64,000 bases of DNA from Hypomesus transpacificus (Eukaryota; Chordata; Actinopteri; Osmeriformes; Osmeridae): contig NC_061081.1 of NCBI RefSeq assembly GCF_021917145.1, forward strand, positions 8,130,269 through 8,194,268. Reading direction: 5' to 3'. The notes below the pieces were generated by a model. That model was not told where the DNA came from, searched no databases, and saw only the letters and a program-made list of their open reading frames with translations. The position numbers and the translations under genes are program-made. Positions 6,057 to 61,349 of this stretch are shown piece after piece (position 1 is the stretch's first letter; each line of letters begins with the position of its first letter).

Positions 6057-7116
6057 GTCTCTCTCTCTGTCTCTCTGTCTCTCTCTCTGTCTCTGTCTCT
6101 CTCTCTGTCTCTCTCTCTGTCTCTGTCTCTCTCTCTCTGTCTTTGTCTCTTTCTCTGTCTCTCTGTCTCTCTCTCTGTCTCTCTCTCTGTCTCTCTCTCT
6201 GTCTCTCTCTCTGTCTCTCTCTCTGTCTCTCTGTCTCTCTCTCTGTCTCTGTCTCTCTCTAGTCATCAGATTACTCCATGGCCTCTCTAGCAGGGGGATT
6301 GGAGGAGATGAAGAGCAGTTTGTCCAATACTGCAACAGGGGCCGAGTTAGGAGCCAGTGTTGCAGGTCCCCAGTCCTATCCGCTGGTACCAGGTAAGATA
6401 CGACCACAAAATACGAAGACACACCCATGTTTGACACACCCACAAAAGGCACGCCCACTTGGTAGAGAACCGACATTCCCTCCTCTCCCTAGAACACACT
6501 CCTGATCCTCGCACCCTACTCCCTATGTCCTACTCCCTAAACCCTACTCCCTATGTCCTTCTCCCTACACCCTGCACCCTTCTCCCTATGTCCTACTCCC
6601 TACACCCTACATCCTGGCCTCATCCCCTCTCTCCATCCTGGCCTCATCCCCTCTCTCCATCCTGGCCTCATCCCCTCTCTCCATCCTGGCCTCATCCCCT
6701 CTCTCCATCCTGGCCTCATCCCCTCTCTCCATCCTGGCCTCATCCCCTCTCTCCATCCTGGCCTCATCCCCTCTCTCCATCCTGGCATCATCTCCTCTCT
6801 CCATCCTGGCCTCATCCCCTCTCTCCATCCTGGCCTCATCCCCTCTCTCCATCCTGGCATCATCTCTCTCTCGCTCTGCTTTCCTGGGTGTTTGGAGGCG
6901 CTGGGAGAGGTGTGGGTTAATTAAGGGAGCTCAGGGAGTGTTCGGACAAGGCCTCTCTGTTCCAACCTCTAATGACACAATCATAGCCCTGGGAACGTGG
7001 GAACCTGGGAATGAGGTTTTTGCTTGTTGCCTCGAAGGAATATTACCTGGCCACACCGAGTGAAAAAGAGGGATATTTCCATTTTCCCTTATGTATGCAC
7101 ACGCACACACACATAT

Positions 7117-7150
<34 letters not shown>

Positions 7151-8652
7151 CTTTATATGTATGAATATCATTTGCATATTTATTCTCTGCCAGTCTCACT
7201 CTAAAGAGTCTGTGTAGCTTAATTATGTCTGAGTAGTGCCCTCTAGAGGATGGAAGCACATATACACACACACACACCCACACCCATACTCCACAAAACT
7301 CATGTTTCACAAATCCAATCTGCACGTTACTGTGTCAGAGAGGGATAGAGATAGTGAGAAAGAGGGAAGAAGAGAGAGAAAGAGAGAGATTGAGAGAGAG
7401 AAAAACACTTGAAAAGGCTATGGTGAACAGACACATGAACACACACACACACACACTCGCACCTCAGAGGATCTGGCCCTGTCTGCCCCCTCTAAGTTAG
7501 GTTGTAGAGACTCCATCTCTCCCTGTCCTCCCTCGCTCCCTCTCTCCTCTCGTCCCCCTCTCCTGTGCCCTGCTCATTTACCCAGAGAGGATGAGTAGCC
7601 CGTCTGGACTAATGCCTCAGTGTTGCTCCAACGCAGAGAAAAACTTTAGAGGGGAGGTGGGTGGAGGGAGAAAGAGGTGCGGGGGGAGAGGGAAGAGGCC
7701 AGGTGGAGGGAGGGAGGGAGGGCAGGAGGAAAAGGTGGGGGCGTGAGGGGAGGTGGATGGAGGAATAGGAGGAAGAAACAGTGCCCTGTGCTGTTCACCC
7801 TGCATCGCCACTGCTGTTCATATCAACACAGTCCAGAGCTCTCCTCTTCTCTGCCTTCTACCCCTCTCCTCCTGTCCCCTCTCCCCTCCCTCCCCTCCCC
7901 TCAGCCTCTCGCCTCCCTCTCTTCTCAGTCAGTTAGTGCTAGCTAAGTGGAGGGGAAATGAGTGGGATTGATGGTGTTAGTGAACGAGTCCTTTATGATG
8001 ATGATAAATGTGTGCGCGCGTGTGTGTGGGTGTGTGTGTGTGTGTGTACGTAAGTGATGATGATGATGAATGGACGGGTCTCTCTTCTCGTCTCCGACTG
8101 TCGAGTGCTGCAAACACAGAGAAATGATTTCGGCTGACACACTGTCATGTCGTCTAATGCAGTTATAAATCCTAGCAACACCCTGACAGAGAAAACGAAG
8201 GAGAGAGGGAGACAGGGAGGAGAAGTAATGAGAAAGGAGAGAAGGAGGAGTGTATTGAGAGGTATGAGAGGAAATGGGGAGATAAAAACAAATCTGGCTG
8301 TATACTGCTAACCTGTGGTTATTATCTGTGTGTGTGTGTGTGTGTGTGTGCAGGTCGGGACCTGGCCAGTACCACTCTACCGGGATACCCCCCACATGTT
8401 CCTCCAACAGGACAGGGCAGCTACTCTACCCCCTCACTAACAAGTATGGTACCTGGTGAGTATCCACACCAACACACACCCACACCCCCACACCCACACA
8501 CACTCTGTGAGATTTCTTACTCTGTCTACCACTATTTATTTTCCTTTTGTGTGTGTACAGTATGTGTGTGTTAGGGGGCTGCACTTGTCTTTGCCACTTC
8601 CTTTTCCCCCCTGTCTGCTAGGCTGACAGCACTCCCAGGGGGGTGATGTGTG

Positions 8653-31766: not shown

Positions 31767-34700
31767 ATGGCTGGCTTGCGGCAGCAGCAGCCCATGCTCG
31801 CAGGGTTGGGTCTCCTCCAGCTCACCCTCTCAGTGTTCCTCCTCTTCCCTCCTTCGGATGCTCTCCCTGGGGACACCAAGAGGAGCAGCTCTACTTCTGT
31901 GGAGGTAAGGAAGACTCAGCGTCATTCAGGACCATCAAAGCTACAGGTCAGGAAATTGTGGCCTCCCAGTGCCGTGTGTCGTAGAACATATATGACATGA
32001 ACGTACAGTTAGTATATATCTGCAGGATGTGAGATACTGTACAATAAGGGCAAAATGTTCGAAATGATGTGTAGCTGTGACATTGTAGAGTGCTTTTGAA
32101 ATGGATTGTATTAGATTGATTTCATATTTTACATGACATGTGGTCATATGTGGCCCGCATTGGGAAAATGTATTAATTATATAGCATATTTTAACTGAAA
32201 ATAGCAGTTTGTCTTGTGTTGAGGTGCGGCACAGAGTTTTTAAGTTGTTTCTGTACATCTCAGATCCTTATCTCTGGGTCAGTAAAACACAGAGGCAAGA
32301 GAAAGAAACAGAGAAGAAAGAGAGGAGAAAGACAGAGAAGAAACTAATCAGCTGGTTTACGTAACACACATCAACCGAGCAACAAAAGAGAAAAACATTT
32401 ACATTTTATAGCCTACTGTTAGACTGAAGTTGAAGAATCATAAGAGGAAAGAGGTCTTGTGAGTGTATGAAACGTGTGTGTTTAGGTAGTGAGAGGGCTC
32501 TTCTCCCGAGCCATCCTCAGTCTTGGTTACCACAAGATCCTGGAGATCCCTGTTGGAGCGCAGAACATCACCATACGAGAAACCATCAAGAGCAGGAACT
32601 ATCTAGGTACCACACTCACACACACATACACACATAAGCACACACCTTTGTGATTGTCAGGTGGGTGAACACTCACTGTATGTTGTCTCCCAGCTCTGGG
32701 GACTGGAAGCGGTGTTTCCATCATCAATGGTAACTGGGCCATCAACAAACCAGGTGTTTACCTTGCTGCGGGAACCAGGCTGACATATCGACGGCCAAAT
32801 GAGGTCCGCTCCCGCACTGGCGAGTCCATTACTGCACCGGGACCAATAACGGAAGAGCTACATCTATATGTGAGACACACACATGCGTCTACATTTTGGC
32901 CATGGTGCAGATTGTGCAGTAAGATAGCTACTCTTATTAACTTATTGAAACTGCTGCCATTGTTTCAGGTAATATACCAGAAGCCTGGCCCCAGTGTGTA
33001 TTACGAATACAGTCTTCTGCCTCCCAATACACACACCAGTCCCCAGCCTGATACACTTCCTGACATCGTTTCCCTGGGTGAGTATACATATAAATATACA
33101 CTATTAATCTAAATAAGCGTAATTACGTTTTTAACCCTTCCACTTATTCACTCTCCTCTTTCCTCTGTATTTTGCTTTTGGATTCAATTATTTATACTCT
33201 CTGGCTCTGACATAACTTCCTCTGGCCCTGACATCACTACACCTTTCTCCTCTTTCATTTTTGGCCCCTGACACCCCTTCACCTCTATTCCCCCCAGTTG
33301 AGACTATTGGCCCCTCCCACAATGATACTTCTGGTCTCTCCCAACATTACACTAAAAGTCCCTCACATAATAGCACAGATAGCCTCTCCTACAGTAGCAC
33401 AGATAGCCCTTCCCATACAGACACTATTCCTTCCCACAATAACAATGACAGCCTTTCCAATGTAAGCATAATCCCCTCCCACATATACACCGTTAGCCCC
33501 TCCCACACAGCCACAGTTAACCCCTCCCATACAGACACTGAAAGCCCCTCCCACACAGTACCTGTCAGCCCCTCCTATTCAGACACAGATAGCCCCTCCT
33601 ACACTGCTAGTCCCTCCTATTTAGACACAGATAGCCCCTCCTACACTGCTAGCCCCTCCTATTCAGACACAGATAGGCCCTCCTACACAGTCACTGCTAG
33701 CCCCTCCTATTCAGACACAGATAGCCCCTCCGACACATACACTCTTAGCCCCTCCGACACATACACTGTTAGCCCCTCCCACACATACACTGATAGCCCC
33801 TCCTACTCAGAGATAGATAGCCCCTCCCATACAGATATTGTTACCTCCTCCCACACAATCACTGATTTCTCCACTTACCCAGAAACTGTTAGTCCCTCCT
33901 ACCCATACACTAGCCTCTTTCACGATTATAATTCTAGCCCCTCCTACACAGACACTGTTAGCCCCTCCTACACAGACACTGTTAGCCCCTCCTACACAGA
34001 CACTGCTAGCCCCTCCTACACAGACACTGTTAGCCCCTCCTACATAAACACTGTTAGCCCCTCCTACACAGACACTGTTAGCCCCTCCTACATAGACACT
34101 GTTAGCCCCTCCTACACAGACACTGCTAGCCCCTCCTACATAGACACTGTTAGCCCCTCCTACACAGACACTGTTAGCCCCTCCTACACAGACACTGCTA
34201 GCCCCTCCTACACAGACACTGTTAGCCCCTCCTACACAGACACTGTTAGCCCCTCCTACATAGACACTGTTAGCCCCTCCTACACAGACACTGTTAGCCC
34301 CTCCTACATAGACACTGTTAGCCCCTCCTACCCAGACACTGTTAGCCCCTCCTTCATAGACACTGTTCGCCCCTCCTACACAGACACTGTTAGCCTCTCC
34401 TACATAGACACTGTTAGCCCCTCCTACACAGACACTGTTAGCCCCTCCCACACAGACGCTGACTTATCTGCTTACCGAGACACTGATAGCCCCTCCCATA
34501 CAGTTGTTCCCTCTAACAAGGACTCCATTGGACAGAACCTCATAAGGAATGACATTCTCAATGAGCAGGAGCATACCAACCAGGTGCCCTCTCACCCCTT
34601 TGTGAGCCCTGACTCCTGGAGCAGCTACATCTGGACCAGCACCGGCCACACACCCTGCACCACCACCTGTGGCACCGGTGAGCCTCTTTAGAAATGTTTC

Positions 34701-49636: not shown

Positions 49637-51806
49637 TATGTGCATGAGTGTGTGAGTGTCTACCTGATCTGAGTCCTCTTGACAGGGGCAGCCTCAGTGA
49701 AGACCACCACAGGTATGGCCAGGTTAAAGAAGCAGTTTTTGAACGACTCAAACCCGTATCCTCCAACCACCTTAATGAGCTCTAGAGCCACCTGTAAACA
49801 CACACTGTTAGGACCCTGTTACTGTGAGACAGACCCTGTTAGGATCCTGTTACTGTGATATACACACACTGTTAGGATCCTGCTACTGTGAGACACACAC
49901 CCTGTTAGGACCCTGTTACTGTGAGACAGACACACTGTTAGGACCCTGTTACTGTGAGACAGACACACTGTTATGACTCAATGAGTTTCATAAACAGGGA
50001 ACTCGTCAACCTGTTAGCTGTTTCCTTCCATCAGAGCCAACAAACATGTGCCGGTCTCTGCACTTTGAATCCCACCATGAGAAATCTGGTGTTTAGTTCT
50101 CACCAGCCCGGCGACGGCTGCCGTTGCCGTAGCGATGGCGGGGATAATCTTGCCGGCGATGCGCTTGGTCTTGAGGCGGTCGGCAGCCTCGATGGCGTAC
50201 ATCCTGGCACGCAGGCCGGACGCCGCCGCCACAAAGTCCATGTGCCCGTTACTGTCGTCATCCTTCTCAAACTGCAGGGGGGTCATCTGTAACCTCTCTG
50301 CACACATACACATCAAAGTGTGTTTGAAAGCAACAAGTATGTGTGTGTACCTGGTGTGATCTAGCAGCAGCAGGAGAGGTGTGTGTAACTGGTGGTGTTT
50401 ACCAGGAGTGTGTACCTGGTGTGTGTGGGTGTGTACCTGGTGTGTGTGGGTGTGTACCTGGTGTGTGTGGGTGTGTACCTGGTGTGTGTGGGTGTGTACC
50501 TGGTGTGTGTGGGTGTGTACCTGGTGTGTGTGGGTGTGTACCTGGTGTGTGTGGGTGTGTACCTGGTGTGTGTGGGTGTGTACCTGGTGTGACGTTGTCA
50601 GCAGCGATGACCTCCTCCAGCTGAGCGATGGCCGCCCTCTCCTCCTCGCTGCTCAGAGACAGCTTCAGCTGATCGGGCTTCTTAGCCGTCTCGTCTGTCT
50701 CAATGCGCTGGACACAACAACCAAACAAGACGATTCAACACCAACCAATGAGAAAACTGCACATTCAGGATGAATAAGAATAAAGCACGTTCAGTACCAA
50801 CCACTAAGAATATGGCACAGTAACAATTCCTCAACCGACGGCAGGATAACCTGTAAAGCAACGATCAAAATACATCCCTCCCTCCCTCTGTCACTACCTT
50901 CTCTGCAGGTCTGTATTCTGGAATATTGATGTGGGATAGGATCCTGGCCACAGCCTCCTGGGAGAGATCCTTCAGACACACACACACACCTGTATCACTC
51001 CTCATTCTACATGGTGCGTGTCTGTATGTATGTCAAATGTGTGCGCCAATGAGAGACAGGGTCAGTGTGCATTAGTGTGTGCACGCGTGAATGTATGAGC
51101 GACCGCGTGTGTGTTCACCTTTTCCAAGTAGGAGATGTTGTAGATCCCGGCAAAGAGTCGAGCGCCGCTGACGACAAAACTGAAGTGCCTGATGGGAAAG
51201 AAAGTGAAACAGGATGAGGGGGAGAGGACTGTGGCCTTCTTCTCCTCAACCACTGGGAACAGGAGGCTCCACTCACAATGGGTCGTTCAAGTCAAACTGG
51301 ATGGGCGACGGGGGTCTCTTAGGGGACTGCCAGAACAAACCTGAGGGGGAGGGACCACAGTCAGTCATCACGTCAACCTGATACATGCTGACTGTGTGTG
51401 TGTGTGTGTGTGAGTGGGAGAGAGAGACTTACTGCCATCCTTTAACCGTGTGTCCAGAGGGAAGGAGTGCAGCAGTTGTAGCGCCTGCAATGGCACACAT
51501 GCGTGAGACACGTGTGGGGGGAAAAACCATGAAATCCACAACTCATAGTAAGAAGCCACTGCTACTCGGACAGGCGCGTGTGAGTGTGTCTGAAGTGGTG
51601 GTATCGTTAGCCTACCTTTCTCTTGAAGTACTTGTCAAACTTGAGGCGGGCCAGAGTGACGCAGTGCTCCCATTGGCTGGGACGTCTGCTTAGCAGCTTG
51701 ATCACTTGGAATGCCCCCTCCATGCTCTCTCTGGCCTGCATCCTCTACACACACACACGTCAGAACGGGCATACATCAGCACATGGCAGGACACACCCAT
51801 ACAGAG

Positions 51807-51837
<31 letters not shown>

Positions 51838-54800
51838 GAGACACACACACAAAGAGACACACACACAAAGAGACACACACATCTACAGTCTATGCTTTTC
51901 TAGATGGATGTACGGTGGTAAATGTATGAATGATGCGTCTGAATCCTAAGTACCTGTATCACTGCCTCTGGTGAACAGTGAGTCTGCCAGAAAACATTAT
52001 AGATGGAGGGCTTGTGGGCAAATGTACTCTCAAACTAGAGAAAGACAGAGCGAGAGAGACAAAGAGATTAAAAGATGACTAGATTCCAGGCCCTTTTAAC
52101 AAAAGTATTGATAGATTAACATTCTAGAAGCACAAGTGAAGAGAGCTCACCTTGTCTCTGGCCCACTGGATGGTGTGTTCTATGACAGCAGGGAAAGACT
52201 TGAGAGTGCAGAACGGGATCTCCTCTTCAGGAGGGTCCCTCTGTCCCCACAAAGAAAACATTGTCTGTTTCAAAACAAAGCTAGCAGATATGCATTGGAA
52301 AGAAAACACTTATTAAAAGACATCCCTCCAACTAAACACAAACGGTAATGGAAGCAGGCAGTTACATGGCTGTTGTAGGACTCGGTCAGGTTTGGCACAA
52401 TGATCTCTGTGTGGCCTTTGGTTCCCATGGTCCCAGAGTCCAGGAGAGGTTTCTGATTGGATACGCTGCGGCTGTAAGTGGATCAAAAATGTCTGCATTG
52501 CATGACCTAGACACACATGTCCATAGCAATCCCCCCAGTGTAAAGCAGTACACAGAGGACGTTCTGCTGTTAGCCCCCCCCCCTCTCACCTGTCGACGTA
52601 TCGGCGGGCCTCCACGTTGTCGAGTGCCGTGACGACCAGGTGGAGGCGGGAGAAGAAGGCATCGTTGTACATGTTCTCGCTGGCGGGGCACACCTTGTTG
52701 AGGTGGGCGTCGATTTGCAGCTCAGGGTTGATGTCCTGAGTGGCGGCCGCTGCCATGGTGCTCTTAGGTTTCTGGGGGGGGGGGGGGGAGGGAGGGAAGG
52801 GGGAAGAGATGGAAGACAAAGGGGGGAGGAAGGAAGAAGGAAGGACGGAGGGGAGCGAGTGATCATGAGAGGTTGCCACCTCTCTGTGGACAATGATGAT
52901 GCATTGGGGCCACCTGTATGTGGCGTCAGCTCACCTGTATGTGGCGTGGTCTGAAGAGGAACTGTCTGTTGAGGTTAGACTTCTCGATCAGGTCGGGGTC
53001 TGTGATGCACACCTGGAGAGATCCCAGCACACACACACTGTTCATCCTTCCGTTGGATCATTGTTCTCTCCATCTTCCTGCTCATCTCTCTGTCCATCCA
53101 TCCGTTCATCCGTACCTCCCTCCCCCTCCCTTCTCCATCCATCTATCCATCCATCCAACAGAGACCTACCTCTCCACAACTCTTGGTCAATCCAACCCCC
53201 AGCAGGGCAAAGTTCTTCAGCATCTCACAGCCGATGGCTCCACAACCCACCTGGGGGGACAGAAAGACCAAACCATGAACTCCTGCTCTGTGTCTGTGTC
53301 TGGGGAGAAGGGGGAAAAGAGACTCTGGCTTCCATGTAGAACATATGTGTCTGTGAGGAGAAGGCAGACGGGACTCACCATGAAGACTCTCAGCTTGTGA
53401 AGCTCCAGGGACATGGACTGTCCTATGCAGGCGCGCAGCCCGTCGTAGCGGTCCCCCCTGCGGGGCACGCACACTCCATCATCAGCCTTTGAGTCAGATG
53501 TGTGCATGTGTATAGGTAAGTGTGTGTGTCTATGCATGTGTGTGTGTGTGTTACCTGGGAGAAAACTCCTCAGCAGGTAAATGCTGCAGCTGCCTCACTA
53601 CCTCTATGGCATCTAGGTAGAACTGTGGACAAGAATGAAAACAGAAAGATCCCAGAGAGAGAGATCCCAGAGAGAGAGAGATCCCAGAGAGAGAGAGATC
53701 CCAGAGAGAGAGAGATCCCAGAGAAAGAGAGATCCCAGAGAGAGAGAGATCCCAGAGAGAGAGAGAGATCCCAGAGAGAGAGAGATCCCAGGGAGAAAGA
53801 GAGATCCCAGAGAGAGAGAGATCCCAGAGAAAGAGAGATCCCAGAGAGAGAGAGATCCCAGGGAGAAAGAGAGATCCCAGAGAGAGAGAGATCCCAGGGA
53901 GGAAGGAGCAGAGAAAGGGAAAGAGAAGGACAACCCAATTAACAGACAAAATTCCAACTGTATACTCGACGGCATGTCCTGTTCCAGGGGTGTTCTTGGT
54001 GTTTCCTGGGAGGTGTTTCCGGTACCCACCCACTGCTGCAGGGGGGCGAACTTCCCCGTGAGGGCTTTGAGAACCTCCTGACTGGCCAGGCCTCCGGCTG
54101 CCGCGGCCAGAGGGGGGAGAGCGCCCCTCGCCGTCCTAGAGAGGCAGCGAACCAGCTCAGCATTGACTGGGGCCTGGAGAAGGGAGAGATGGGAGGTGGT
54201 GGTGAAGGGGAGAGGGGAAGATGATGAGAAAGGTGGGGAGGCAGGGTGGGGACGGAGAGGAAAAGGAAATTCTAGATATTTGAGGGTCGGATTTGAATGT
54301 GTGTCACACACTGTCTGTGTGTGTGTGTGCATGCGTGCGTGTGGAAACGCCTGGCTGAATCACTTTGTTTCGGAGCGTATTGTTGACTTCCTCTGTGAGC
54401 GTCACCAAAACCTCAGCATCCTGTAAGCACCTGCACACGAACAGCAGGAACACACACAGAACGGCCTCACGTCAGTGAACTAACCCGCTCGCTTAAAAGC
54501 TGTACATTATTATGTGTCAGCGCTGTTCTCTACACAGTTTGAAGCTGGGTTACCCGATGCTGGGAAGTCGACCATGCTGCTCCTGGAAGTTGTCCAAAGC
54601 CAACATGGCGGCATGGATCTGAAGTGGAGCCTAAGGGACGGATTCAGAATAAAGCAAATAGGAAACTGTCAGACCCCGCTCACTCTGACAGGAAGTTGAA
54701 CTGAGGAATTCTGATCCCTCACCTCTGGTTTGCTGAAATCTGGGGTCAGAACCTGGGGTTCGCAAAGCTGTCTCTCCATCGTCTCCTGAAGATAGACACA

Positions 54801-56639
54801 CCCACACACACCCACAGAAGAGGGAAGCATAGCTCTCTCAATATACAGTCTTAGGCAGCAAGGGTGATTTAAAACACTGTAGGTCGTGAAGAGAGAGATG
54901 GATGAAGTTGTGTTTTTCTCTGTGTGTATGTGTGTGCGTGTGTGTATGTGTGAGAGAGTGTGTCCACGTGTATAACGCTTACAAATCTGTATGTTGTAGG
55001 CGTCTTCTCCAAGAGGAAGAATCCACCATGGGTGTATTGCTGCATGTGAGATGTGTCTCCTACGGCAAAACTATGAGGGGAGAGGACTGGACCACACACA
55101 CGCACGCACACGCACGCACGCACACCATTGACATATCTCAGTAATAAAACGGGAATCTTACACAAAGCAGGTAACACGTGGCAAGTCGCAGTACCTGTGA
55201 CCTGGCGTGAGCGGCTGTTGAGCTCCTCCATGCCGTTGACCTCCCTGAACAGAACGCTCTGGCCCGTCTGGAGCCCGTGGGTCCGGCTATCCATACAGGT
55301 CACCACCCCCGGGTTGTCCTGGGGTCAGAGGTCAAACGGGACAGGTCAGAACACACACACACTCCCCTAAAACAGACACACACTTCCAAACACAGGAAGT
55401 GTTACCTGAGTGATGTGTTGGATGAATATCTCCTTAGGCTCCTCCCCCGTGGGGTCCGTCACCTCAAACTCCTCCCCAAAGTCACAGAACACCCGGACGC
55501 AGATCCCGTACGTGTCGCAGCCAATGAACTGCGGAGAAAAGCCGCAACGTCAGCGCGCATCAGTAACAAAGGGCTAATGCTAGAAAGGATACTGGATACA
55601 AAATACATTTACAGGTCTGAGAGGTCAATTTGATCCTTTGGCAACAGATATCATACGTCATGGTCACATAACTCACCCTGATCGGGGGCCGCTGGTAGTG
55701 GCAGAACTGGTCCACCTTCTTCTGCAAGGTCAGTCTGGCCTCTGTTAGAATGACACACTGGAACCCAGAACACAACCGGAGTGCGTTAGCCTCAACACAT
55801 GGGGCGGGTCAGAGGTGACAGTGGACCCCCCCAGCGACGGTGCCCGTCTCTGCCTCACCTGGTACCTCTTGAGGAAGTTGAGGTCCGTGGCGTCGTCCAG
55901 GGGGCAGGAGGATGTCTCCACGTGAACGTAGGGATTCAGTTCTGCCACCCTGGGGTGCACCGCCTCCACCCTGATGGGGGGAGGAGAACAGGGGGGAAGA
56001 GAGACAGGGGGGAAGAGAGACAGGGGGGAAGAGAGACAGGGGGGAAGAGAGACAGGGGGGAAGAGAGACAGGGGGGGAAGAGAGACAGGGGGGGAAGAGA
56101 TAGTAAAAGAGTGAATAAGTAGGAGACACATTAACAGGTACTGTAGAGACATCATTTAGAGTGATGGTGTCCTACCTTCTCCTCTGGTTTACCACATCAT
56201 CTTGGTGGATGAAGAAGTTGGAGCCGAGGTCCCAGGTCTCACACTGCCTGGAGTCATGGAGGGTCACAGCCTATGGATGAGGAACACACACACCCTTTGG
56301 TAGTCTTCAGATATGTTACAAATGAGAAGAATAGGTTCCCAGTGACTTAAAACTCACCTTCACACCTGCCAAGACTATGTTCTTAGCTGTGAAACAACAA
56401 CCATTAACAGTAAGACACTTCTGTCACACAACCATTGTGACTTTATCTTTTGCCATGCCATGCACATGATGTCATATCATGATAACATGCAGCACCTACC
56501 TATCTCCACTCCTAGACCTCCCAGTCCACTGATGAATACTGAGGACTGGGCCATCTGCTGCATGGCACTGTCCCCCAGCACATAGCGCTGACGGCTGGAT
56601 GGACCGATGGAGAGAGAGAGAGATAGAGATAGAGATAGA

Positions 56640-58606: not shown

Positions 58607-61349
58607 ATGTGGTGTAGTCGCGTGGCTTTGCGTCGTCTACAGCGGATTGCCGTTACTCCATTAAATACAGCAGGGGGTCTAACCGGCGCAGTGCAGAGAC
58701 AAATGTCAACGCTTCCGCGGGTGTATATCACCCGACAAATTCCCCCAGAGGGACTGAAGATCCTCCGGGAGTCTGGACAGTAAGTGTGTGACCACACAAA
58801 AACACAATGTTCAAATTGATGGCCCTTGTCTATAGTTTATTATGTAGGCTATGTTGTACAATTGTTTTGGGGTTATTTAACTGAACATTGTGGGTATAGG
58901 CTATATTTATAAAAGCATCTGCCAAATGAATACATTACACACATTTTACTTTTGTAAAATGCTAAGAGTTTGAAGTTGGTGAAAAAGTTCATCATTTACT
59001 TTGGGTAAACAGGTTTGCCAATATTTGCCCCGCCGACCTGTTGGATAAGAAGGGTCCAGTCAGTTTGCTTACATAGGTTGTGAGTGTTTGTGTGTGTGTG
59101 AGAGTTTAAATACATAATGTCTAGTTGCTCTTTAAATGTACGCTAACTTGTATATCATTTATTTGTTTATTTATTAATCTCAACGTCTCATTTCATGCAG
59201 AGTGCAGTTTGAGCTGTGGGACTCAGACGATGTCCCTGTGCCCAGATCGGAACTGCTCCAGAAGGTGAAAGGCATAGACGCTCTGCTCTGCGTTCTCACC
59301 GAGAAGATTGATACAGAGTTATTGGATGCCGCAGGTCAGGTGATTGTCTTTGTTGTCCATGTCAATGTCTTAACCCTGACACAATGCAAGGGGCCTCCTC
59401 TTATGTGTCTGTGCTGGCGTGTGTGTGTTCCTACAGGTCCAAACCTGAAGGTCATCAGCACTATGTCAGTGGGATTTGACCATTTGAATCTGGAGGAGCT
59501 GAAGAAGAGGTCAGTGACCTGACCAGATACACAGCAGGGACAGTCATGTGGCAATCCCTAATCCAATTCTGTGTATATATGTGTGTGCGTTTTCAGGGGG
59601 GTCCGTGTGGGCTACACCCCAGACGTTCTGACGGACTCTGTGGCAGAGCTCACCGTCGCTCTGCTGCTGACCACGTCCAGGAGATTGATCGAGGCCACGC
59701 ATGAAGCCAAGACGTACTGTCCACACACACTCACACACAGACACACACTCCCTCTCTCCCTGACACACACACATAAACTCTTTCTGTCTTACATACACAC
59801 ATGCTGCAACGTGTCTTCAAGTATGTCTAACCTCTTCTCCCTCTGTTCTCCTCCCCAGAGGAGGTTGGGGCACCTGGAGGACCTTGTGGCTGTGTGGCTA
59901 CGAGCTAGCTAACAGCACGGTGGGCATCCTGGGTCTGGGGAGGATCGGTGAGCATGACAACACTCCACCTCCCACACCCACACCTCATTACAACATGCAC
60001 ACCTCACACTAAACACACATCATGACACTCTCCCATACAATCTCACACGAAACACATACCCTGACCCATGTACTTCCACACGACGTTACTGCAGACGTTA
60101 GCATATCAGGTTGTTTAAATAGACGGATGCATTTGTCAAGCTGTAACTGTGTGTGCGACAGGGGTGGCCATCGCAGAGCGCCTGAAGCCCTTCAAGGTAA
60201 AGAAGTTCATCTACACCGACGTGGTACCCAGACCTGAACTGGCCAGCATGATCAATGCAGAGTACGGTGAGTAGCACCGGTCAACTCCCAGACCTCCATC
60301 TGAACAGCTATGGATAGATGGATGGATGAATGGATGGAGTGAGTGAATTGTGGTCTATGTTATGTATCTGTTGTTGTGTCTAACTATGTGTGTCATGTCT
60401 CTGTCCTCCAGTCTCTCTGGATGAGCTGGCTAAGCAGTCAGACTTCCTGACAATCTGCTGCGCTCTCACGCCAGAGACCAAGGAGATCTGCAACAAGAAC
60501 CTCTTTTCCAAGATGAAGAACACCTCCATTTTCATCAATACCAGCAGGTGACGGAGACACAGACATGCACATGCACAAATGTCCTACGTTTTCTAAATGT
60601 GTACATCAATAATGGAAACACACACAGATTTTCAGAGGTGTGTGTGTCTGGTGTTGTGTGTCAGGGGAGGGGTGGTGAACCAGCAGGACCTTTATGAGGC
60701 TCTGTCCATGGGTCAGATAGCCGGCGCCGGCCTGGACGTCACCGTCCCTGAGCCCCTCCCAATCAGCCACCCGCTTTTTACCCTCAAAAACTGTGGTGAG
60801 TCTGTCCTCTCCATCACTGTGGTGAGTCTGTCCTCTCCATCACTGTGGTGAGTCTGTCCTCTCCATCACTGTGGTGAGTCTGTCCTCTCCATCACTGTGG
60901 TGAGTCTGTCCTCTCCATCACTGTGGTGAGTCTGTCCTCTCCATCACTGTGGTGAGTCTGTCCTCTCCATCACTGTGGTGAGTCTGTCCTCTCCATCACT
61001 GCTTCCCTTGTCTCTCAGCTCTGTCCTCATGTCGTCACCTCTGGGGTTTTAATGCACCATTTCGATGCTTCTAAGCCCATAAAGAGACCTAATATTACTA
61101 TTAAAAAGTGTGGTTAAGTGTCTGAGGCTTTCACATGTATTTGTGACTTACACATTTGTGCTTGCTGTATATGAACAACAGAGCCTTATTGCACCTCTCT
61201 TCCTTTTCCCTCCATCCATCTTTACAGTAATTCTTCCTCACATCGCCAGTGCCTCCTACAGCACCCGAAATGCCATGTCTGCCCTGGCAGCCAATAACCT
61301 GCTGCTAGGCCTGACGGGCCAGCCAATGATCAAAGAGCTCAAGATTTAG
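58607..61349 (+). CDS. grhpr: Glyoxylate/hydroxypyruvate reductase
   Basis: GRHPR reduces glyoxylate to glycolate and hydroxypyruvate to D-glycerate with NADPH; human loss causes primary hyperoxaluria type 2. Exons: 58607-58779, 59201-59334, 59437-59509, 59597-59713, 59859-59947, 60162-60266, 60412-60547, 60665-60795, 61228-61349. From the ATG at 58703 it is 327 aa (human 328). Visible: [22 protein letters not shown], the Rossmann motif [24 protein letters not shown], the catalytic Arg region [15 protein letters not shown], Glu in [11 protein letters not shown], and the active-site His in ILPHIASAS. An in-frame upstream ATG (58607) adds 32 residues rich in Arg without acidic residues ([14 protein letters not shown]), which looks like a mitochondrial presequence. 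I give the longer start because it is in the same exon. The donor of exon 8 is tandemly repeated. Confidence 0.97.
58898..58937 (+). repeat. Degenerate SINE-tail-like fragment in grhpr intron 1
   Basis: tttataaaagcatctgccaa followed by atgaatacat resembles the L2-type tail, but with more changes than the other copies. Confidence 0.4.
60796..61003 (+). repeat. 26-bp minisatellite of repeated grhpr splice donors
   Basis: Eight units of GTGAGTCTGTCCTCTCCATC plus ACTGTG. The first starts at the intron GT after exon 60665-60795, and the exon end AACTGTG is mimicked by CACTGTG at every unit end. Unit starts: 60796, 60822, 60848, 60874, 60900, 60926, 60952, 60978; the last is partial. Confidence 0.95.

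Follow-up and report, generated by a model that had tools for sequence, protein, structure and literature searches.

Tandem copies of a splice donor at a coding exon of uba6 in Hypomesus transpacificus, probably carried by a passive minisatellite

One coding exon of the uba6 gene in the fish Hypomesus transpacificus runs directly into a minisatellite that repeats the exon's own 5′ splice site nine times. The most probable account, in our view, is that this is a young minisatellite, seeded over the exon–intron junction of an apparently intact gene, in which the first donor is dominant and the others are passengers. The array was originally predicted to encode a protein segment in the enzyme whose length would vary with the number of repeats and with the donor chosen. 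As the main story of the array, this is doubtful on what we find in the sequence. Here we describe the array, its reading frame and the strength of its donors, and compare it with similar arrays in the same window (the 64,000 nucleotides of contig NC_061081.1 that were analysed), in the rest of the genome and in human genes.

The uba6 gene and its array

The identity of the gene is well supported. The two exons named in the original prediction, 50707-50584 and 50297-50104 (both on the minus strand), were borne out by an alignment to human UBA6 chains (E 4e-37). The first of these ends in ...GTCACACCAG in phase 1 and the next begins with AGAGGTTACAGATG... in the same alignment. Across the junction the fish and human proteins align without a gap (ADNVTP/ERLQM vs human SNEATK/SDLQM), and a 2-residue gap lies further upstream, inside exon 50707-50584. 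The SCCH domain (PF10585) matches the joined exons with an E-value of 2.5e-66, and the junction falls within it. For the rest of the gene, we joined the minus-strand peptides of those exons that were built, keeping their order in the genome and omitting gaps; together they score 1110 bits against a human UBA6 chain, and in a tblastn search the uba6 pieces fall one after another. The best match is UBA6, ahead of UBA1 and UBA7, and the SCCH domain is present, as expected for an orthologue. A protein search of the genome for a spliced retrocopy or other close copy of the two exons scored three candidates and gave two matches, both at this locus; uba1-like genes were also missed by this search, which therefore speaks for close copies only.

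The array itself was annotated by TRF at 50408-50591 on the minus strand, with 8.8 copies of a 21-bp unit (GTACACACCCACACACACCAG), 100% matches and 0% indels. It overlaps exon 50707-50584 by exactly 8 nt (50591-50584). The first unit holds the exon's own donor, and every further unit carries an intact CCAG/GTACAC donor (the slash marks the splice junction). Chance is excluded as the origin of the array. A search of the window with the 13-mer ACACCAGGTACAC (ACACCAG/GTACAC) returned ten sites on the minus strand and zero on the plus strand. Nine of these follow one another at 21-nt spacing, confirming the nine tandem 5′ splice sites that had been predicted after this exon, with the last exonic base at 50584, 50563, 50542, 50521, 50500, 50479, 50458, 50437 and 50416.

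The first copy (50583-50584) is the canonical, exon-proximal donor and the only one of the nine that reproduces the spacing seen in the human protein at this junction. The eight further identical donors (50415-50563) are all in frame. Right after the array there is a candidate cryptic donor, CTG/GTAAAC (50402-50403), and the tenth copy of the 13-mer is isolated (50350-50351, last exonic base 50351), 65 nt beyond the ninth array donor. Use of this tenth copy would leave an intron of 53 nt and join out of frame, running through a premature TAA.

A search of the genome (437 Mb) for a second haplotype or a second locus of the array gave eight matches, all at the array itself, in a search that skips simple repeats. 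The exon–array–intron stretch also folds worse than its shuffles as RNA (z +2.15; 98 of 100 shuffles at least as well folded), therefore no structural device is suggested.

Reading frame and donor strength

The predicted frame proved correct: each of the nine donors joins exon 50297-50104 in frame and free of stops, with the intron shrinking from 286 to 118 nt along the series. The prediction of seven residues per unit also stands; however, the added segment is not THPHTPG. Because the last G of the exon opens a codon that the intron divides, it is exactly k × GTHPHTP, with k from 0 to 8. If the intron were retained, the exon's frame would continue past the array to a TAA (...THSW, then stop).

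Divisibility of the period by three is a 1-in-3 event by chance, and random 21-bp stretches from the window that begin with GT were stop-free in the phase of the array in ~77% of 20,000 draws.

The repeated donor has a consensus score of 4.58, the lowest among 26 uba6 donors placed by reading, and the cryptic donor at 50403 scores slightly higher (5.86). Its pairing with the 5′ end of U1 (-7.1) is not the weakest, with 8 of the 26 donors pairing less well. As the nine donors are identical, the 9-mer itself gives the first donor no advantage. In the available part of one report, SRSF1 is described as favouring intron-proximal donors and hnRNP A1 intron-distal ones (PMC5585400).

Other arrays in the window

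The uba6 array is not the only one in the window that copies a coding donor. On the plus strand, TRF places an array of 26-bp units at 60790-61001 (ACTGTG/GTGAGTCTGTCCTCTCCATC, 8.2 copies, 100% identical). Its first 6 nt are also the last 6 of a grhpr exon, which ends at 60795, and the GTGAGT donor is repeated with each unit. The next grhpr exon, read from the sequence, starts at 61228, and the protein of the two exons aligns gap-free to human GRHPR (E 7e-29). Like the uba6 array, this one consists of perfect units and its first copy straddles a coding donor; unlike uba6, its period of 26 is no multiple of three and the frame is lost.

The intron after uba6 exon 50297-50104 hosts a 33-bp array of acceptor-like units (...GTGTGTCTGTCTCACAG/TAACAGG...; TRF, 49798-49977, minus strand), which reaches the real acceptor of exon 49791-49663. 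Its use as a series of acceptors was considered and rejected: 17 of the 18 upstream AGs listed give a stop, and only the one at 49815 joins open. Taken together, the grhpr donor array and this acceptor-like array indicate that arrays bearing splice sites are tied to no single site or frame.

Further arrays in the window were observed in passing. Two pyrimidine-rich minisatellites on the minus strand (55976-56100 and 53643-53901) lie close upstream of uba6 acceptors and are apparently part of their polypyrimidine tracts. At 33473-34461 a 24-bp unit (CCCCTCCTACACAGACACTGTTAG) with an acceptor-like look is repeated about 42 times.

Arrays at coding donors across the genome

In 264 kb of sequence we kept 38 minisatellite arrays, of which at least two (uba6 and grhpr) begin at a coding donor; edges were inspected for part of the remaining arrays. 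The 437-Mb genome was searched for strong donors repeated three times in succession, using the same pattern read backwards as the control. Triples of CAGGTRAGT were found 253 times against 30 backwards; with gaps of 3-15 the counts were 75 vs 2 (18 distinct loci were counted), and with gaps of 16-27 they were 123 vs 27. The counts were 310 vs 56 for MTGGTRAGT, 277 vs 167 for GAGGTRAGT and 26 vs 20 for AAGGTRAGT. Matches overlap within arrays and between patterns, therefore these counts are not of independent events. In the 264 kb, CAGGTRAGT taken singly occurs less often than its reverse (3 vs 9), a sample too small for a null. The donor of uba6 is weak and invisible to strong-donor patterns, hence arrays of weak donors are uncounted here.

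Loci were taken from all matches for AAGGTRAGT and for CAGGTRAGT with gaps of 3-15, and from the first 100 matches for each of the other four patterns. Among the matches listed we fetched 75 edges, omitting one MTGGTRAGT locus already taken from the other strand. By reading, 13 of the 75 start at the donor of a coding exon, and for ten of them the peptide matches a protein family or a structure. These are ST7 (L040; a Pfam match, for a peptide without a PDB match), TTC21 (L068), aldehyde dehydrogenase (L071) and 14-3-3 (L078) by family, GKRP (L050) by a family match below the curated cutoff, and a structure match to chain 8djk, listed as HMG-CoA reductase (L036). SLC12A4 (L076), GABBR1 (L072), TRPM2-like (L092) and GH47 (L095) have a family or structure match. 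The peptides ending at the donor in the other three (L039, L057 and L094) gave no match. Together with uba6 and grhpr, this makes 15 coding-donor arrays, with exact exon overlaps of 4-24 nt and periods from 17 to 42. At two of them, the st7-like 42-bp array and the ttc21-like 21-bp array, the first extra unit preserves the frame and is stop-free, as in uba6.

The other 62 edges were left uncalled as coding donors. For at least five of them (L037, L062, L065, L086 and L100) the fetched stretch starts inside the array, with the exon side outside it. Another five (L043, L044, L059, L085 and L090) appear, by reading, to be coding exons seen from the antisense strand; the opposite strand of L043 matches the heme lyase family, the sole family match among the five, and a family search with the L059 peptide gave no match. 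Three ambiguous loci (L054, L073 and L105) were omitted from the coding-donor set, and family searches with the peptides of L033, L049 and L051 were without a match.

A related case was noted in L013, where a 30-bp array of 19 copies (6954-7531) starts at the end of what appears to be the last coding exon of a CaMK2-like gene. By reading, the consensus unit has an in-frame TAG. This looks like another array that begins where coding constraint ends.

If frame-preserving units were favoured, periods divisible by three should be in excess among arrays of this kind. They were found in 4 of 14 coding-donor arrays (95% interval 8-58%), where 4.7 are expected, in a sample that is small and non-random. 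The 14-3-3 array was dropped from this count (spacings of 20, 27 and 27); the array at L039 has two possible periods, 17 and 34, and neither is a multiple of three, and L092 has spacings of 34 and 35. Among the four frame-preserving periods, the units of uba6, st7 and ttc21 are open in frame and that of L094 is closed. In 8 of the 15 arrays (L036, L039, L050, L071, L072, L076, L092 and L094) the first extra unit contains an in-frame stop, and the arrays persist. Selection for frame is thus unsupported. The comparative evidence runs against it, although modest selection remains compatible with the numbers. The frame preservation at uba6 is best read as luck, with the downstream donors presumably mostly silent.

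Comparison with known systems

Judged by its anatomy, the uba6 array is one of the exon-edge VNTRs that repeat a splice donor, a kind already known from human ABCA7, CBS and IFI6. The minisatellite of IFI6 (6-16) has a unit of 12 bp, against 21 bp in uba6. The title of a study by Turri et al. in 1995 reportedly says that the IFI6 minisatellite 'provides multiple splice donor sites'. Two downstream repeat units are stated to serve as donors, resulting in three mRNA species, in the portion of PMC4526556 available to us; such use is stated for IFI6, whereas for uba6 it is a prediction.

The intron-18 VNTR of ABCA7 has a 25-bp unit that opens with the two nucleotides of the exon 18 donor, GT, and RNA was observed in which a donor within the VNTR had led to one unit being retained (both from an extract of PMC5954066). 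Both this array and that of uba6 start at the exon's own donor. According to the same extract, the ABCA7 array is C-rich, has about 12 to 427 units and loses the frame when a unit is retained, whereas the 21-bp uba6 array is CA-rich and in frame with nine donors. The 31-bp VNTR of CBS (c.1444_1467+7) has 16 to 21 repeats (PMC2630376, in part). The coordinates given there describe a unit of 24 coding and 7 intronic positions that, as in uba6, crosses the exon–intron boundary; unlike in uba6, a 31-bp unit does not preserve the frame.

A search of a limited literature library found no paper that brings uba6 together with at least two of minisatellite, splice donor and teleost. In the same library, judged by title and the start of the abstract, we found no genome-wide treatment of minisatellites that span splice junctions.

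DISCUSSION

How would such an array come about? Because the units are perfectly identical, we infer a mutational route in which a 21-bp segment, with 8 nucleotides from the end of the exon and 13 from the start of the intron, underwent tandem duplication and was then amplified by slippage or unequal exchange. A duplication over the junction would be tolerated because the first copy preserves both the exon and its donor, so that exon-proximal splicing still yields the normal mRNA. With the first donor intact, the array could spread into the intron and carry the additional donors along. The first donor (50584/50583) would then account for most uba6 mRNA. Splicing would leak to the following units to a minor extent at most, each unit adding seven residues in the SCCH domain. 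The perfect units, the 8-nt exon overlap, the human spacing given by the first donor only and the recurrence at grhpr and 13 further loci all support this account. So does the persistence of out-of-frame arrays: heavy use of downstream donors would make these harmful and rare, and those that we sampled are not rare. A prevailing first donor is the most economical reading. Other observations stand against first-donor dominance. The nine donors are identical; their consensus score, the lowest of the 26 placed in the gene, invites competition, though their U1 pairing is not the weakest; and SRSF1 is reported to prefer intron-proximal donors (PMC5585400, in part).

We regard it as distinctly less probable, but worth taking seriously, that several of the nine donors are substantially used, producing UBA6 with zero to eight copies of GTHPHTP according to repeat number and donor choice. 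The donors are identical, in frame and stop-free over the whole range of intron lengths, and the portions seen of PMC5954066 and PMC4526556 provide precedents, in the retained unit of ABCA7 and the two downstream units of IFI6, that make some use of the downstream uba6 donors plausible by analogy. The site lies in the SCCH domain, and UBA1 and yeast E1 chains differ by 0 to 4 residues from the fish query in net length over the stretch around it. However, frame preservation is at chance level among similar arrays, and the insert would land immediately ahead of the domain's conserved LQM..FEKDDD stretch. On this comparative evidence the functional claim appears less likely than a passive repeat. 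A bolder and rather speculative extension is that coding donors repeatedly seed minisatellites in this genome, and that the open, frame-preserving subset (uba6, st7 and ttc21 of the 15) uses several identical donors, resulting in protein insertions whose repeat length is specific to the individual.

We give very little credence to a model in which the intron-proximal end wins, through the last donor (50416) or the cryptic one (50403), so that long or truncated products tune the dose of UBA6 by nonsense-mediated decay. The reported preference of SRSF1 would favour it (PMC5585400, in part), as would the higher score of the cryptic donor, whose use would place a stop at the junction; but it would impair a gene for which the genome protein search found no second copy. 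An assembly artefact, i.e. a collapsed or inflated repeat, is similarly improbable as the source of the copy number. All units are perfectly identical and a single haplotype was found (eight matches, all at the array), yet 184 bp would be short for assembly from long reads, and similar arrays with other units occur at many sites in the genome.

The value of the uba6 array lies in the comparisons that it offers. With nine identical donors set 21 nt apart behind one exon, nature has provided an experiment on how splice sites are chosen, in which intrinsic strength is constant and position varies, and every outcome among them would be readable because all nine junctions keep the frame. With 15 coding-donor arrays of periods 17 to 42, a rule of donor choice could be put to the test in one gene after another, and those arrays of the set that lose the frame are a ready control with nonsense-mediated decay. 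There is also a warning here for gene annotators, as exons with donor arrays may receive falsely extended predictions.
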